A stretch of 54,907 bases of DNA from a virus: positions 1 to 54,907 of the IMG/VR virus record IMGVR_UViG_3300042731_005307; one strand, 5' to 3'. The notes beneath the pieces were generated by a model. The model ran no database searches, was not told the DNA's origin, and saw nothing but the letters and a program-made list of their open reading frames with translations. Every line of letters begins with the position of its first letter. Within the stretch, counting starts at the first letter, position 1. A program made the position numbers and the translations under genes. This document shows positions 17,782 through 47,485 of the stretch, in pieces.

Positions 17782-17789
17782 AAGTCGAA

Positions 17790-17828
17790 ACGCCCTTATG
17801 GGCGTCTGCCGGAACTGTCCACCCGGCA
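17790..17828 (+). ncRNA. Two GC-rich hairpins in a 5' leader
   Basis: ACGCCC-TTAT-GGGCGT (17790-17805) and TGCCGG/CCGGCA (17807-17828), only one base apart, in an otherwise AT-rich region. No T-run follows, so they are not simple terminators. They lie 40 bases upstream of the 42-residue membrane peptide and could be a cis-regulatory RNA. Confidence 0.4.
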
Positions 17829-17867
17829 CTGAAGAGACAGGACAAAAATTAAAATTGGAGGTCTAAA

Positions 17868-35505: not shown

Positions 35506-36849
35506 TTAATTTACCTCCCTTTCCCAGGCACTTGTCATTCTGTTTACCATTTTATCGTAAGCGGCATCAGAATTATGTTCCAGTTTTTTATTACTAACAT
35601 GAGAAATGGAATCCACCCGAATGTCCTCAACGTCTTCGGAATCTTCGTTTTCTTGTCCTTCCAAATATTCCAACGCAGCATCAAACCGGGCATTAATATA
35701 TGCCTCTTTGGCTTTATCAATTTTTTCTTTTGAATTCGGAAACAATTTTACAATTATTTCTTTTTTCAAATCCATTTCTTTTGAATCTTTTCTGATTTCA
35801 ACATCTGCCCGTTTAGCAGCATCCCAAATAACAAGGCGTTGTTGTACAGCATTTTCAATGTCTTCATCATTATTTTGATTCTCTTCACTTTCTTTTAATT
35901 GTTTTTTAAGCTCAGTGAGTTCATCTTCTTTTTGATCTTTTTCCCCTTCAAGGGTAAGTTTGTCTTTTTTAAGTTGTTCTATTTCTTTTTCAAGATTATC
36001 AACTTTTTTTTCTGACGTATTTAAGGCACGAATAACTTCTGGTTCGGCCTCATATTCCACACCATCAATTTTAAATTTTTTTAATTGTGCCATCGGCTCT
36101 ACTCCTTTGATTTTATTTTCGTCTGTTTGAATTCCGATATTTTCAGCGGAATCCAATCTTAAAATTGCAGCATCCCCGGCCCGGCCCCTGTCCACTAATG
36201 CAATGTGGTTGCCACGGATATTTCTTTGTATGCCGTCATACGGAATCCCCATCCATACTCCCGGCGTCTCTTCAACATCGCAGGTATAGCCGTTACTAAT
36301 AGCCCGCTTTCCTTCCTGAATATCCATTATTGTTTCTCTGTCTGTAAAAATTAACGGAGTAGTAACGTGGTATTCATCATGATCTATTCTATCACCAGAA
36401 TATCCTACCTGGTATTGTTTTATATTATCTATTGTTATTCTTTCGCGCGGATGTTCATTGGTTAATGGAAGCATTTTAAAAGAATCTAAACTATCCTGAT
36501 CAAAAACTTCTTCAGGTGGTCTTAATTCCCAAAAAACAGTCCCGTCTTTTAACTGGTAAGGAAAAACACCAACATTTGTAATAACAGCTTTTCCTTTCAA
36601 GTACCCTTCAGAAGTAAGTTCAAATTTTTCTGTAATCCATTCTTTGTTTGTATCGGAACTAATATAATCAATACGAATTTGATCGCTTTTAAAATTTACA
36701 TCTGCTTTATCTCGTTTATTATATTCTGTTGCGCATATGGCACTACGTTGTTTTTGATCCGGAAATTCTTTAACCATGATCGGATCTCCCATACATCTGG
36801 ACATGAATTCTTTTTGTGTTTCTCCCTTTTTTGGTTTTGGCAATGGCAT
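35506..36849 (-). CDS. Prohead protease-scaffold fusion, DUF2213-like
   Basis: 447 residues. Residues ~60-235 are a DUF2213-type protease (TNEHPRE, AISNGYTCDVEETPG, IRGNHIALVDRGRAGDA). After ~275 comes a long acidic coiled coil (~278-335) and a tail, which is the scaffold. Fusion of protease and scaffold is common in such heads. First gene of the head-tail operon, preceded by its own promoter and a leader hairpin. Confidence 0.82.
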   Translation of the reverse strand: MPLPKPKKGETQKEFMSRCMGDPIMVKEFPDQKQRSAICATEYNKRDKADVNFKSDQIRIDYISSDTNKEWITEKFELTSEGYLKGKAVITNVGVFPYQLKDGTVFWELRPPEEVFDQDSLDSFKMLPLTNEHPRERITIDNIKQYQVGYSGDRIDHDEYHVTTPLIFTDRETIMDIQEGKRAISNGYTCDVEETPGVWMGIPYDGIQRNIRGNHIALVDRGRAGDAAILRLDSAENIGIQTDENKIKGVEPMAQLKKFKIDGVEYEAEPEVIRALNTSEKKVDNLEKEIEQLKKDKLTLEGEKDQKEDELTELKKQLKESEENQNNDEDIENAVQQRLVIWDAAKRADVEIRKDSKEMDLKKEIIVKLFPNSKEKIDKAKEAYINARFDAALEYLEGQENEDSEDVEDIRVDSISHVSNKKLEHNSDAAYDKMVNRMTSAWEREVN

Positions 36850-38134: not shown

Positions 38135-38161
38135 TTATTTATCCTTTATTATTTTTAAGTG

Positions 38162-38247
38162 TGTGTCTCCCGGTCAGTAGAAATTTGAAAATGTTTTTGA
38201 TCGGAACTTACTAGGGTTAGTGTGTGCAGAACTAACCGGGAGACACA
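38162..38247 (-). ncRNA. Long-stem RNA element with alternative pairing
   Basis: A 16-bp stem: 38162-38177 pairs with 38232-38247 (core GTGTCTCCCGG/CCGGGAGACAC). The single non-Watson-Crick pair is a G-U in the minus-strand RNA but C-A in the plus-strand RNA, which favours a minus transcript. CTAACC at 38232-38237 can instead pair with GGTTAG at 38215-38220, so two exclusive folds exist. It lies 28 bases upstream of the 241-residue gene. Confidence 0.5.
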
Positions 38248-38269: not shown

Positions 38270-38347
38270 ACTTTCGCCTCATTTGTTGCTGCCGGACTCG
38301 AACCGGCAAGAACACCCTCTGCAACAACACTGGTTTAAATCGAAAGT
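38270..38347 (-). ncRNA. tRNA acceptor/T-arm minihelix inside an outer stem
   Basis: Minus strand: TGTTGTT (38323-38329) pairs with AGCAACA (38284-38290). Between them lie a 15-base linker and a perfect T-arm, GCCGG-TTCGAGT-CCGGC (38291-38307). D-arm and anticodon arm are missing. An outer 7-bp stem ACTTTCG/CGAAAGT (38341-38347 and 38270-38276) encloses it. It is either a degenerate tRNA or a purposeful tRNA mimic. Confidence 0.5.
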
Positions 38348-38451
38348 AAAAAGCGGGTCTAGGTTTTTATTTTCTTACTAGCAACTTGTTCCGGACAAGT
38401 ACCGGTACTAATAGCCATATCCGCAATGACCAGCTACGGTTGGACTTTTCT

Positions 38452-38545
38452 TTGCCGGGGCAGGAATCGAACCTGCACGGAGTTATTTGTTATTACCCCC
38501 ACCAAGGCAATCCCTTGGCGCGTCTTCCACTTCCGCCACCCGGCT
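38452..38545 (-). tRNA. Class II (Leu-type) tRNA-like gene with abnormal anticodon loop
   Basis: Minus strand: acceptor AGCCGGG with CCCGGCA (6 pairs, A1-A72 mismatch), T8, D-arm GCG/CGC with GG in the loop, anticodon stem CCAAG/CTTGG, long variable arm, and T-arm GCAGG-TTCGATT-CCTGC. The body is that of tRNA-Leu. The anticodon loop is GGATTGC: U33 is absent and the nominal anticodon ATT is not Leu. The region can also form 6 bp with a 5-base loop. No CCA is encoded. It is a tRNA relic or a non-decoding mimic. Confidence 0.65.
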
Positions 38546-38617
38546 ATCTGCATAGAGTCATCAAGTACTAAAATCTTAAAATCTTATACACAAAGTGTTA
38601 GTATGTAATTTATAGTT

Positions 38618-43146: not shown

Positions 43147-43860
43147 TTATATTCCTCCAATTTTGTTTAATTCATTTTGATAGTATTCTTTTTCCCATAG
43201 CAATTTATCAAAAGCATCGCCTCTTTTAATGCCCAATGAAGCAACCCGTATATGTTCACGGTTATATCTCCCACCACCCAACATCCCGTAATTTGGATGA
43301 ACCGGCAATTGATAATGAGCCAAATAGGCAAAAATATCTGATTGTTTCCAATATGCCAACGGACGGCAGGTTTTTTCTGTCTTTACACCATAAATTTTTG
43401 TTAACATTTTTCTTATTCCAGACTCTTCAGCACGTACACCGGATATATATTTTTTTCCAAATTGTTTAACTGCTTTTTTAAAACCATTTTCTAAAACACC
43501 TGTGGCCCTATAGCGATTACCATCATACCACCTGCTTTCGGTTATCTCATAATAATTAACATTATAAGTTTTTAAAAAATAATTTCTAACATCAAAACAA
43601 TAAGGATTTACAATATCTTTAACAATAATCCACACCAATGGTATTTTAATTTGTGCCCTATAACACAAATGCACCAAAACAGTTGAGTCCTTGCCCCATG
43701 AAGTACTAACATAATCACTATCAAAATTGATAATAGTATCAATAGCTTTTTGTTCTTTTTCCACCATATTATGATTATTATAATAAATCAAATCGGCTTC
43801 CTCATAACTATCCCAAATTTCTAAATCCTGTTGTGTATGCTTGTCACACTGTATTAACAT
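43147..43860 (-). CDS. cysH: CysH-like PP-loop ATPase of type IV-B CRISPR cassette
   Basis: 237 residues from ATG 43860 (GGAG upstream). STSWGKDSTVLVHL (~53-66) is the PP-loop; GVRAEESGIRKM and CRPLAYWKQSDIFAYLAH are the conserved middle and late blocks of the PAPS reductase family. The C-terminus (LNKIGGI) lacks the ECGxH redox motif of true PAPS reductases, so sulfate reduction is unlikely. A cysH-like gene is the known marker of type IV-B CRISPR-Cas loci, where its role is unresolved. Last gene of the cassette, joined to the portal gene. Confidence 0.85.
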   Translation of the reverse strand: MLIQCDKHTQQDLEIWDSYEEADLIYYNNHNMVEKEQKAIDTIINFDSDYVSTSWGKDSTVLVHLCYRAQIKIPLVWIIVKDIVNPYCFDVRNYFLKTYNVNYYEITESRWYDGNRYRATGVLENGFKKAVKQFGKKYISGVRAEESGIRKMLTKIYGVKTEKTCRPLAYWKQSDIFAYLAHYQLPVHPNYGMLGGGRYNREHIRVASLGIKRGDAFDKLLWEKEYYQNELNKIGGI

Positions 43861-44257
43861 TTCGTCTCCATTCCGACAGGGCAATTGCTAATGATGCCTC
43901 TACTGTCAAACAAAAATTATTGATTGTTGGTATTGTTGCTTTCTGGCAACTAATCAATTTAGGGAGCCCTTTCGTTTCTCCACCTATCAGTATAGTATCA
44001 AGATTGTTCCATGTGATATTATATATAGATTGTTTATAATAATTTTCGAGTGCAATTGTATGCATATCAATCAATGGCATCATGTTAGTTTCTATTATTT
44101 TAACTTTATTTTTTGCTTCAAACAGATTTCCTTTCAATTCCCATTTTATACTTATATCCTGTGAATTTACTAAAATTAATTTTTCAATTCCAAAACTAAA
44201 ACAAGTACGATATGCACGATTTAAATTACGTCCAACATTATATAAAACCACTCTCAT
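43844..44257 (-). CDS. SpoU/TrmH-type (SPOUT) RNA 2'-O-methyltransferase
   Basis: 137 residues. The three SPOUT motifs are present: NVGRNLNRAYRTCFSFGI (motif 1), ILIGGETKGLP (motif 2) and IPTINNFCLTVEASLAIALS (motif 3). The minimal length and the GGETKGLP form recall TrmL, which methylates position 34 of tRNA-Leu, but the substrate is unproven. It overlaps the zinc-ribbon gene by 4 bp and cysH by 17 bp. I do not know of it as a standard type IV-B component. Confidence 0.78.
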   Translation of the reverse strand: MRVVLYNVGRNLNRAYRTCFSFGIEKLILVNSQDISIKWELKGNLFEAKNKVKIIETNMMPLIDMHTIALENYYKQSIYNITWNNLDTILIGGETKGLPKLISCQKATIPTINNFCLTVEASLAIALSEWRRNVNTV

Positions 44258-44799
44258 TTTTTTTTTTTCCTTCTATACATTTCTTTTTGATAGCAGCTCA
44301 TACAAACTTTTTTTCCAGGAAAAACACTTGTATATAATCCTGTTCTTGTTTCTTTTCCACATAATTCACATGTTTTTATCAGACGCCCATAATATTTATT
44401 CACATACTTGCGCTTATGCTGCATATAACAATAATTACAAACTTTTTTTCCAGGAAATAATGATTTAGTCATATATTCTAATTTATCTTTTCCACAAATA
44501 TCGCAATGATTTTTATGTTTTGGTATACTCCTTTTTTGTTTGCATTTATTTTTCTTTTTTAAATGAAAAGTACAAACAATTTTATTATAAAAATAATAAA
44601 GTTCTCTTTGTAAAAAATTATATTTTTCATTTAGAGTTCCAGGAGACAGGCAAACAAGTGCTATAATTTGCAACACGTCCCACCTATAGTGTGGATAAAT
44701 ATACTTCCATAATTTATTTTTTTTAGCAAAAGTAAAAAACAATGGATAATCCTGAATCACATTTGCGTATTGTTGTATTATATAATAACCATTTAACAT
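44254..44799 (-). CDS. Double zinc-ribbon protein in CRISPR cassette
   Basis: 181 residues. A helical N-terminal half (~1-95) ends in a basic stretch. Two similar ~26-residue ribbons follow: C99xxC102...C121xxC124 and C144xxC147...C166xxC169, both containing FPGKKVC. The basic C-terminus suggests nucleic-acid binding. It overlaps csf3 by 7 bp and the SPOUT gene by 4 bp. No family recognised; possibly an RNA-binding partner of the cassette. Confidence 0.65.
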   Translation of the reverse strand: MLNGYYIIQQYANVIQDYPLFFTFAKKNKLWKYIYPHYRWDVLQIIALVCLSPGTLNEKYNFLQRELYYFYNKIVCTFHLKKKNKCKQKRSIPKHKNHCDICGKDKLEYMTKSLFPGKKVCNYCYMQHKRKYVNKYYGRLIKTCELCGKETRTGLYTSVFPGKKVCMSCYQKEMYRRKKKK

Positions 44800-45473
44800 G
44801 GAACCACAACCTCACACTGATTTTCTGGATGCCAGTAGGGTGGTTTGTATGCACCAAATCCATAACGAATACCGTCCATGTTTCGAGTAGCATCACAAAC
44901 AGGCAGAGTCTTCATCAATATTTTTTTCCCGGAGCACCGCGCGGATATTGAAAAATTTTCCTTTATTATTTCAACATTCCATTTATTTACAATACCATAT
45001 CCTATTTTTCTAAAATAACCAAGCGAGTTAACATATTTCAATAATCGTAATGCCTGCTCAGAGTCCCCCCTAGCAAACCAAACCACCCTACTAATTATTT
45101 TAGCATGCAGCGTCTGAAATCTTGAACGTAAATACCCACCCCCTATATTAATGGTTTTTCTCTTTAGTGGATCTATGATTGTGCTAAGCATATCTGTTTC
45201 AAATCTTTTTGCCAATTTATCATGCCATTCTGTTTCAATTATATAAACCGGATCAGAACAACAGTTAACTTTATCTCCTCCAACATCATATTCAGTAAGC
45301 GGTATCGGCAAACGTTCAAATTCAGTTATAGGTGTTGCTTTTGTATATTTTTTTGATTTGAATGTATTCATATAAAATGCAAGCTGATAAGTCAACAATG
45401 AGTCCAGTGGTGGTATTTCCCCCACCACTGGTGCAACCAAATAAGCCGTTACTTTAAAATTTTCTATTGCCAT
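44793..45473 (-). CDS. csf3: Type IV Cas5-like protein Csf3
   Basis: 226 residues from ATG 45473 (GAGG upstream; a GTG at 45485 is the alternative). The N-terminal RAMP strand NFKVTAYLVAPVVGEIPPLD, the NIGGGYLRSRFQ block and the C-terminal glycine-rich loop FRKIGYGIVNKW fit Csf3, the Cas5-like subunit that would cap the 5' end of a guide RNA in the type IV complex. Follows csf2 with a short overlap or gap, depending on start. Confidence 0.8.
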   Translation of the reverse strand: MAIENFKVTAYLVAPVVGEIPPLDSLLTYQLAFYMNTFKSKKYTKATPITEFERLPIPLTEYDVGGDKVNCCSDPVYIIETEWHDKLAKRFETDMLSTIIDPLKRKTINIGGGYLRSRFQTLHAKIISRVVWFARGDSEQALRLLKYVNSLGYFRKIGYGIVNKWNVEIIKENFSISARCSGKKILMKTLPVCDATRNMDGIRYGFGAYKPPYWHPENQCEVVVPC

Positions 45474-45481
45474 AAACGACC

Positions 45482-46426
45482 TCACTTAAAATTTTTATCA
45501 AGCCATTCGATACACTTGGCTTTATTAACCTCAACATGATTAATGTATTCGTCAATGCAGTCGTCAATATCGCTGGCGGAAATAAAATCCTTGCTGTCTT
45601 CGATCATGACGTTCAATTTCAATTTACCATGTCCAATTCTTGAATAGCCACCAAGAAACGCACCGGATTCCTGCCATGTTTCCAAAGATAAAAAAAAGGC
45701 ACCGACCTCTTTACGCGATATTCTATTCAAGATAAAGCCGTGATAAAATAATGATCCGGTAATAATGCATTGTCCGTTATAAATCATTAAACCGGTTTTT
45801 TTATCCGATGCTAATTCATCTTGAGAAACGATCTCAACAACATCCTTATGTCGAGTAATATCGCCTCTTGTATATTGATATGCGTGAATAAAATCTTCAC
45901 TTGATTTCAGTTGACAATTCAAATCAATATCAAATTTTTCGGGCAATAACTCATAAATAAAATGTTTATTTTCTTCACAAATTAATTTCCCGCGAAACAC
46001 AATGAGACTTCCTGCAACTATTTGCCACGGAAGACTTGCCCCTAATAGCCTCACAAGTGGAAACAATTCATACATTTCGGCAATTTCTTTCATTTTCTCA
46101 GAGTTGCTGCTTTCAGTTAATCCACCGCCATAAAACAAAAAATTAGCCTGTTTAATGTCAATTTTCTTTCTCATGCTACATGCATTAAGAAGATAATGCA
46201 TACCGGAATCACGAATTAATTTATGACGAATTGAATTTCCAGACAAAACAGGTATCCATTTTTCCATACCATTATGGATAACCTTTTCCCTATTGATTAT
46301 TGACTCATTTCCAGCTGTCTCCATCATGTGCGTTAATGGGGACAAAGTCTCAGACACACAATGAACTTTAACTGTTCCTATATCTTTTTTTCTACGTTTT
46401 ACTTTTGGTCTTACTGTTTTATTCAT
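45482..46426 (-). CDS. csf2: Type IV Cas7-like backbone protein Csf2
   Basis: 314 residues. PVLSGNSIRHKLIRDSGMHY (~59-78), the LFYGGGL block, FPLVRLLGASLPWQ and the late glycine-rich SGAFLGGYSRIGHGKL are the Cas7/RAMP features of Csf2. It would polymerise along RNA to form the crescent backbone. Order csf1-cas11-csf2-csf3 with overlapping ends is that of type IV loci. Very basic N-terminus. Confidence 0.85.
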   Translation of the reverse strand: MNKTVRPKVKRRKKDIGTVKVHCVSETLSPLTHMMETAGNESIINREKVIHNGMEKWIPVLSGNSIRHKLIRDSGMHYLLNACSMRKKIDIKQANFLFYGGGLTESSNSEKMKEIAEMYELFPLVRLLGASLPWQIVAGSLIVFRGKLICEENKHFIYELLPEKFDIDLNCQLKSSEDFIHAYQYTRGDITRHKDVVEIVSQDELASDKKTGLMIYNGQCIITGSLFYHGFILNRISRKEVGAFFLSLETWQESGAFLGGYSRIGHGKLKLNVMIEDSKDFISASDIDDCIDEYINHVEVNKAKCIEWLDKNFK

Positions 46427-46863
46427 TTCGTGCCTCCCTTTTTATTTTTATTCCAAGTATCACGGGATTTAACAATAATAAGATAATGTTTTTTTTCAAT
46501 TGTACGTAGAAATTGTTGTTTCCATTCTTTATCTCTTGTTGATAATGTCGAAATAAAATAATGTAAATTTTCATTTGCTGCAGCTTTACCACTATCTGCT
46601 TTAACATAATCCAAACAATGATTAACAAAAAGTTCAACATCACCACCGGCTTTTGCCAATGAAGAAACAAGTCCATTGCCAATTCGTTCCCATAGTGTTT
46701 TGCGGTCCAAATTATCACCAAACACTTCAGGCAATATTGATACAAATCTTATAACCTCATCTTCCATTGATTTTTTACCCAAATCATCCATTTGTCCCAG
46801 CGGGTCCAATAGCCCTGCTATTTTTAAACGGAACTCTTCAGGTGTTAACTGATTGATATTCAT
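46423..46863 (-). CDS. cas11: Type IV small subunit Cas11-like
   Basis: 146 residues, predicted all-helical (LTPEEFRLKIAGLLDPLGQM, then ENLHYFISTLSTRDKEWKQQ), with a basic C-terminus. It lies between csf1 and csf2, where type IV-B loci carry the small Cas11 subunit. Its assignment depends mainly on position, size and helical content, since Cas11 proteins diverge strongly. Overlaps csf1 by 26 bp and csf2 by 4 bp. Confidence 0.7.
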   Translation of the reverse strand: MNINQLTPEEFRLKIAGLLDPLGQMDDLGKKSMEDEVIRFVSILPEVFGDNLDRKTLWERIGNGLVSSLAKAGGDVELFVNHCLDYVKADSGKAAANENLHYFISTLSTRDKEWKQQFLRTIEKKHYLIIVKSRDTWNKNKKGGTK

Positions 46864-47485
46864 TTTGAGCCTCCTGTTTATTTTTTGCTAACCATACCGC
46901 CAACTGTGACAATGGTTGCATATGTATTTTGAGCCATTTCTCATACTCAATTAAATCATTCCAGTATTTTTGAACAGCTATTGCATATTGTACTTTATCA
47001 GGATTCAATATTGCTACTTTTCCTATAGCAGCACTTAGTCTATTACATATAAATATTCGTTTTGCCAATTCCTTCAAATCAACTATAATTTGTTGTTCCT
47101 CAAACTGCAATATAAAATTATTTTTATCAAAGTTCCATGGAGCTCTAAATAATAAATGCTTTTGTCCAGAATCTGCAATAACTAATTTGAATGGTTTTTT
47201 TTTGATATGAAATAATAAATATTTTATTTCCTCAATATGCTTTTTAGTAAATGCTATTTTTTTATTTTTTGTTATAAACCAGGAATAATTACGGGGACTT
47301 CCATTTCTAATTTCTCCATCTATCATTTGTATTTCAGAATTGCTGCCAAATGCCCAAACACAATCATCACAGACATATTGAGAATCAGGACAAGCCACTA
47401 TATCATAATTTGTAAACGTTTTTTTTACATATTCTTTTATTGAATATTTTTTATCACAATTTGATCCACAATAAAAACATTTCAT
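46838..47485 (-). CDS. csf1: Type IV signature protein Csf1 (Cas8-like)
   Basis: 215 residues, usual for Csf1. A cysteine-rich N-terminus with CFYCGSNC (C3, C6, C10) and PDSQYVCDDCVWAF (C39, C42) forms the Csf1 zinc finger, with TFTNYDIVACP between. The helical C-terminal part would contact the small subunits. It is the type IV marker gene and the first gene of the cassette. AGGAG ribosome site; no separate promoter seen upstream. Confidence 0.85.
   Translation of the reverse strand: MKCFYCGSNCDKKYSIKEYVKKTFTNYDIVACPDSQYVCDDCVWAFGSNSEIQMIDGEIRNGSPRNYSWFITKNKKIAFTKKHIEEIKYLLFHIKKKPFKLVIADSGQKHLLFRAPWNFDKNNFILQFEEQQIIVDLKELAKRIFICNRLSAAIGKVAILNPDKVQYAIAVQKYWNDLIEYEKWLKIHMQPLSQLAVWLAKNKQEAQNEYQSVNT

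Follow-up and report, generated by a model that had tools for sequence, protein, structure and literature searches.

A viral tRNA-Leu-like RNA with an intact body and no decoding anticodon loop, and similar elements in many viral contigs

The window analysed here is the whole of a 54,907-base virus record (IMGVR_UViG_3300042731_005307, positions 1 to 54,907). A 400-nt GC-rich non-coding stretch, visible as a rise in GC at 38.2-38.6 kb within low-GC surroundings, lies in the head-gene module, flanked by two small genes that share a strand, and carries a non-decoding class II (Leu-type) tRNA-like RNA at 38452-38545 on the minus strand (A1 = 38545, A73 = 38452), recognised from its sequence, by ARAGORN and as a minimum-energy cloverleaf. 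This module reads portal, Mu-F-like gene, accessory genes, the protein at 35506-36849 (putative 'duf2213') and capsid protein. A scan of the whole 54.9-kb window for complete T-arms gave two only, both on the minus strand and 150 nt apart. One belongs to the window element; the other (GCCGG-TTCGAGT-CCGGC followed by AGCAACA and A; 38283-38307, minus strand) marks a second tRNA-derived 3' half 150 nt downstream, so that the initial annotation can be extended: the window element is not alone. Candidate 5' halves for the second element are AGTTGCT at about 38386 or TGTTGC at 38321-38326, and the candidate 104-nt element folded no better than shuffled sequences. The same GC-rich stretch holds a strong long-range hairpin (GTGTCTCCCGGTTAGT / ACTGACCGGGAGACAC; 38161-38246, minus strand; z -6.4, 0 of 200 shuffles), which adjoins both tRNA-derived elements and has no U-run.

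Type IV-B-like CRISPR genes are found between terminase and portal (43147-47485, all on the minus strand), namely csf1 (46838-47485), csf2 (45482-46426; PADLOC type IV Cas7, E 8e-84) and csf3 (44793-45485), and the region includes a SpoU-type methylase (43844-44257) and a cysH-like PAPS reductase (43147-43884). No CRISPR array was seen near the csf genes. Virus-encoded type IV-B systems with CysH are described for Bathyarchaeia viruses (PMC10848311). Rfam RF02276 identified a type II hammerhead ribozyme at 17783-17846 on the plus strand (40.7 bits, above threshold), most genes being on the other strand.

Read from 38545 to 38452 on the minus strand, the window element is AGCCGGG-U-G-GCGGAAGTGGAAGACGC-GCCAAGGGATTGCCTTGGT-GGGGGTAATAACAAATAACTCCGT-GCAGGTTCGATTCCTGC-CCCGGCA-A. 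The acceptor 5' strand AGCCGGG (38539-38545) pairs at six of its seven positions with the 3' strand CCCGGCA (38453-38459), the exception being an A1.A72 mismatch, so that a full 7-bp acceptor is lacking; the 3' strand is followed by A73 at 38452 with no encoded CCA. The D-arm GCG-GAAGTGGAAGA-CGC (38520-38536) retains A14, A15, G18G19 and A20a, the long variable arm GGGGT...ACTCC (38479-38499) is followed by U48 at 38477, and the T-arm, located by the motif scan, is GCAGG-TTCGATT-CCTGC (38460-38476). With U8, A14, A15-U48, G18G19, a TTCRA T-loop and A73 all kept, the body is that of a class II tRNA. At the position of the anticodon arm lies the hairpin GCCAAGG-GATTG-CCTTGGT (38501-38519), whose loop region reads GGATTGC (G32, G33, A34 T35 T36, G37, C38); G32 and C38 are able to pair, which leaves a loop of 5 nt without U33 in place of the 5-bp stem and 7-nt loop with U33 of a decoding tRNA-Leu.

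The minimum-energy fold of the window element is the full cloverleaf (-39.7 kcal/mol, z -2.3) with a 6-bp acceptor, D-arm, 5-nt-loop anticodon hairpin, variable arm and T-arm, and in this fold the anticodon stem is stronger than usual. When the 43-nt middle was dinucleotide-shuffled 2000 times, about 4 of the shuffles matched the combined score of anticodon hairpin and variable arm; a pseudoknot was also sought in the middle and none was significant (p 0.55), leaving hairpin plus variable arm as its structure. One pair among about 26 is broken, and the mutations across all arms that characterise tRNA pseudogenes are absent. Since sequence, fold, shuffle test and T-arm scan agree, the initial annotation described the element correctly in giving it a class II body, a GGATTGC loop without U33 and extendable to a 5-nt loop, and an A-A first pair. 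ARAGORN made a single tRNA call in the window, 'tRNA-Asn(att)' at 38451-38546, and the best Rfam match of the element within the tRNA clan was tRNA-Sec at 23.4 bits, below the family threshold of 47. A tmRNA was rejected: ARAGORN -m returned nothing at default stringency and only chance folds at relaxed thresholds, and no Rfam tmRNA match was present in the window.

Searches with single neighbouring proteins found no relatives of the phage, and 80 relatives were gathered by alignment of the capsid protein (36-53% identity). Among them the Mu-F-like gene was present in 42 and a homologue of the 35506-36849 protein in 70, in the same order in nearly all. No T-arm was found in the gap corresponding to the window element in any relative checked (about 40 carrying both flanking genes), and the element is therefore accessory in this lineage.

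Relatives of the tRNA-like body were found elsewhere. A search with the acceptor led to L353 (87.9-kb contig), whose body AGCCGGGTGGCGGAAGTGGCAGACGC ... GCAGGTTCAAGTCCTGCCCCGGCGA shares 47 of 51 nt with the window element; it has an unpaired A1.G72 and A73, and its middle differs from that of the window element and again lacks a canonical arm. As the closest chassis relative, with an intact body and a non-canonical anticodon region, L353 fits the selective loss that had been proposed. L351, L354 and L356 have the acceptor AGCCGGG/CCCGGCT, as in the window except that A1 pairs with U72, and their non-decoding middle is longer. The exact D-arm pattern gave five matches, four within unrelated sequence and one a real relative, L004. 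Its D-arm is identical to that of the window element, all seven acceptor pairs are formed, A73 is present, and a 4-nt loop replaces the anticodon loop. A pattern based on the GGATTG loop gave no match in genomes and three in viral contigs, all of them other tRNA-likes sharing the loop by chance. The 51-nt body of the window element agrees at 41 of 51 positions with the consensus of a viral group named here after its AGTCAGG acceptor, compared with no more than 40 of 51 (median 33) for ordinary phage tRNA-Leu, in a comparison biased towards elements that were detected through their D-arm. Against AGTCAGG/CCTGACT, the acceptor of the window element shows two compensated pairs (3-70 and 5-68) and a change of U72 to A. 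The A1.A72 mismatch could reflect loss of U72 from the A1-U72 pair common in related elements; descent from a tRNA-Leu of the GCCGGGG/CCCCGGC type that lost one pair is equally possible.

At least 120 viral contigs matched a pattern that combined a Leu-type D-arm with a T-arm and excluded U at position 33. Because the D-arm, part of the T-arm and the non-U33 were fixed by this pattern, the informative features are limited to the acceptor, U8, U48 and A73. A minority of the matches are tRNA-Leu whose anticodon arm is normal apart from C33, and the rest have no normal anticodon arm. The former were observed in viral contigs L030, L045, L104, L109, L114, L120 and L122, with GAG/AAG anticodons. 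At least 115 distinct non-decoding Leu-type elements were obtained from the viral contigs and 17 genome contigs; these contigs, like those behind all other counts given here, are not phylogenetically independent. Among the 115 listed, acceptor pairing was 7/7 in 83 and 6/7 in 14, and 63 different acceptor 5' strands were found (among the matches listed). In the 97 well-paired elements among the matches listed, U8 was present in 97, U48 in 92 and A73 in 79, and the first pair was A-U in 55, compared with a G in first position in 49 of 55 canonical tRNA-Leu from the fetched loci. A stricter pattern with a purine at 33 and a longer middle is satisfied by 84 of 120 viral loci (among the matches listed) and matched only 17 contigs across 84,980 genomes of bacteria and archaea, several of these contigs being from Bacteroidota.

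The window element shares with this set the intact D-arm and T-arm with A73 and U48, with six of seven acceptor pairs, and the absence of a canonical anticodon arm; it lacks the pseudoknotted or long structured insert typical of many, though not all, members. Arrays also occur, with eight elements among more than 20 normal tRNAs in L121, four in L113 and five including variants in L126. No protein gene constantly linked to the tRNA-like loci was found among their neighbours. In isolate phage records three whole elements had no full-length match, and a chassis query gave partial matches only. A tmRNA lies near non-decoding elements at L136:6050-6295 and L010:5468-5866 (each within about 1 kb) and at L300:5724-6218 (a few kb away), one of the three being permuted. 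Just upstream of the portal gene, two capsid-related contigs (L193:4663 and L195:1785) carry a partial tRNA 3' half that has A33 in its 7-nt loop and includes an encoded CCA.

For the AGTCAGG group, the conserved 3' half ACAGGTTCGANTCCTGTCCTGACTAC was searched without any D-arm or anticodon condition, requiring AGTCAGGT upstream. At least 215 distinct AGTCAGG/CCTGACT elements were recovered, mostly 65 to 180 nt long and one to eight per locus; this set partly includes loci from the D-arm pattern search and is not wholly free of its bias, and A73, partly fixed by the search pattern, was excluded as evidence. A strict canonical anticodon arm was present in 1 of 215 (among the matches listed), against 0.9% of shuffled middles and 415 of 575 ordinary tRNAs of the same loci. 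With one mismatch allowed the corresponding values were 20 of 215 (again among the matches listed), 9.6% and 505 of 575. In the 107 elements with a Leu-type D-arm (among the matches listed) U33 was found in 21 (20%) and U48 in 94 (88%), and the AGTCAGG acceptor occurs in none of the 52 canonical tRNA-Leu genes from the same loci. With the canonical arm at chance level, U33 mostly lost and the acceptor absent from canonical tRNA-Leu, we conclude that the AGTCAGG chassis serves non-decoding RNAs. ARAGORN detects 51 of the 215 elements (among the matches listed), with scattered anticodons.

Analysis of 115 non-canonical middles (among the matches listed) indicated an H-type pseudoknot in 25 and a hairpin plus variable arm in 26 at p <= 0.05, about 6 being expected for each. 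The five elements L133, L017, L142, L143 and L138, which come from genomes of Bacteroides and Phocaeicola or from a related viral contig, align well, and 97.9% of the cells pair on the proposed structure, a paired-cell count reached by none of 500 shuffles and by no slid control. Two-sided changes were found in six pairs, three in the acceptor, two in one insert helix and one in the pseudoknot helix; judged from this alignment, the changes in the acceptor and pseudoknot of the Bacteroides-prophage set are compensatory. When 210 inserts (among the matches listed) were compared, 28 clusters of related inserts and 146 unique ones were obtained; the insert of L075 is identical to one in L121. Rfam searches of 12 such loci gave matches limited to the general tRNA family or tmRNA. 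Two insert families, in L241, L269 and L111 and in L240, L262 and L300, have the conserved cores GCTRGGTAA (between covarying stems) and GATAC...GAACAGATA, respectively, and look like independent structured RNAs housed in the tRNA-like chassis. Additional tRNA-family matches, 100-160 nt in length and in small clusters, were also observed in the Bacteroides contigs L142:7121-7247, L143:6827-6985 and L138:2320-3460, some with a class I D-arm and a long insert.

Taken on the nucleotide evidence, the body has been kept and decoding lost both in the window element and in a large viral set. We regard the window element as a maintained, non-decoding mimic of tRNA-Leu in the broad sense, a reading held at about even confidence. 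E. coli LeuRS is reported to need A73 and the D/T elbow (A15-U48, G18G19, A20a), the anticodon and variable arm being dispensable to the extent that variants without both are still charged (PMC9976931). A73, A15-U48, G18G19 and A20a are all present in the window RNA. Host tRNA 5' and 3' processing enzymes would cut the RNA from the late transcript, CCA would then be added, and leucyl-tRNA synthetase would probably charge the product, which would persist as a stable tRNA-shaped molecule unable to enter decoding. Its acceptor/elbow half would most likely serve as a decoy or sponge, occupying a host factor that recognises this part of a tRNA, candidate targets being a tRNA-targeting defence, a tail nuclease or a processing or charging enzyme; this decoy step, taken alone, is rather doubtful, although acceptor/elbow decoys have a conceivable target. 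In the long-insert relatives the chassis would more likely be a protective scaffold for the insert. Counting against a maintained mimic are the A1.A72 mismatch, which weakens the acceptor end, the absence of the element from the corresponding gap in about 40 phage relatives, and the finding of one reasonably close chassis relative and, among the matches listed, none with the middle of the window element.

The same observations bear on the view that the element is a decaying phage tRNA-Leu, once useful, which has lost its anticodon loop and first pair. Besides the missing U33 and the A1.A72 mismatch, it is the sole ARAGORN-called tRNA-like element of the genome, sits in an accessory slot that is empty in relatives, and has as neighbour a second element just half recognisable. 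Every stem of the body is nevertheless intact, the anticodon stem is unusually strong, the body of L353 is nearly identical, and more than 200 distinct elements are non-decoding as a rule with conserved bodies and compensatory acceptor changes. We therefore consider decay unlikely, if still a serious contender. The initial annotation had argued for selective loss of decoding rather than general decay, and this was borne out: in many unrelated elements of viruses the acceptor, D- and T-arms persist although no canonical anticodon arm is present, and the relatives checked showed neither decay in all arms nor a canonical loop.

Its further suggestion of a mimic or decoy, for instance against anticodon nucleases, stood in part. 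A non-decoding mimic is favoured; a decoy that binds a nuclease recognising tRNA-Leu and offers it no cleavable loop is without specific support, since the loop cut by such enzymes is closed or replaced. Phage tRNAs with altered anticodon loops do evade tRNA-targeting defences, but they are described as working tRNAs (PMC10264068). The recognised loop is absent here, in relatives pseudoknots or long inserts take its place, and no link to a nuclease system was seen, so that this role appears improbable; a decoy for factors binding the acceptor/elbow half is possible.

A comparably small probability is given to a processing or stability element, in which the two tRNA-likes and the long hairpin would form a structured spacer of the late transcript, with host tRNA-processing enzymes cutting between genes. 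The clustering of two T-arms and the z -6.4 hairpin in one 400-nt non-coding stretch, among same-strand genes and low-GC surroundings, is consistent with it. A minimal tRNA-like would be enough for such a spacer, however, and the Leu identity elements and the arrays of up to eight elsewhere would be unexplained.

It is very improbable that the element is a guide or scaffold RNA for the type IV-B Csf complex encoded by the same phage. The csf1, csf2, csf3 and cysH-like genes lie 5-9 kb upstream on the same strand with no CRISPR array nearby, but no sequence or positional link to them was found, no csf-type gene was seen among the common neighbours of tRNA-like loci, and a type IV-B complex reportedly assembles mainly on non-CRISPR RNA with no apparent sequence specificity, as cited in PMC10848311. 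Continued decoding by the element, whether by way of a spliced intron or with an unusual loop, is scarcely credible: an anticodon (att) or a 2-nt intron can be forced onto it with ARAGORN, but a normal U-turn is excluded by G33, the G32-C38 pair and the 5-nt loop, and an intron 3' of the anticodon would keep U33, which is found in 20% of the AGTCAGG set (among the matches listed).

Beyond the single mimic of tRNA-Leu in the window, we tentatively propose, at somewhat less than even confidence, that phages have a tRNA-Leu-shaped chassis dedicated to use as a natural 'tRNA scaffold', in which the acceptor/D/T half is conserved and recognised by tRNA enzymes of the host and the anticodon half is swapped for exchangeable structured RNAs, sometimes in arrays of up to eight. 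Many of these phages are apparently phages of Bacteroidota, and the window element would be a minimal member with its loop sealed. The elements would then form an undescribed class of viral non-coding RNA. No description of such RNAs was found in the open-access literature (subscription papers and preprints lay outside the scope of this search) and no Rfam family exists; the class of chassis with insert is possibly new altogether, and the window element itself is a kind of tRNA-like RNA.

What phage tRNAs do has long been debated, mostly in terms of decoding or of escape from tRNA cleavage. Non-decoding look-alikes separate the halves of the tRNA, and their function must depend on either the insert or the acceptor/elbow half. 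These elements are missed by standard annotation or are assigned false anticodons, and published phage tRNA inventories may for this reason include some of them as tRNAs. They are possibly useful as natural examples of tRNA-scaffolded RNA.

Comparison with known systems places the window element close to bacterial and phage tRNA-Leu, with which it shares the body, the long variable arm, U8:A14, A15-U48, G18G19, A73 and the T-arm, and from which it differs by the absence of a decoding-capable loop, by G33, the closed 32-38 pair and A1.A72. The nearest precedents, along with phage tRNAs whose anticodon loop is altered, are the T4 species 1 and 2 RNAs (rnaC and rnaD). These are likewise small stable phage RNAs annotated beside tRNA genes, and rnaC (L130:1109-1247) has at its 3' terminus a perfect T-arm with an acceptor-like end, ACCGGGTTCGAATCCCGGCGTTTCGTA; however, no Leu-type D-arm chassis was recognised in them, and rnaC is 139 nt long and lies in a tRNA cluster. 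To our knowledge no function has been assigned to rnaC or rnaD. A tRNA-like body without an anticodon is also found in tmRNA, whereas the window element has a complete Leu-type D-arm and a 43-nt middle. The altered-loop phage tRNAs of van den Berg 2023 (PMC10264068) are similarly phage-encoded with a changed anticodon loop but are described as working tRNAs that escape cleavage, and the window element cannot decode. The anticodon-less minimal E. coli tRNA-Leu (PMC9976931) lacks the anticodon and variable arms and is still leucylated; it was engineered in the laboratory, unlike the natural element described here.
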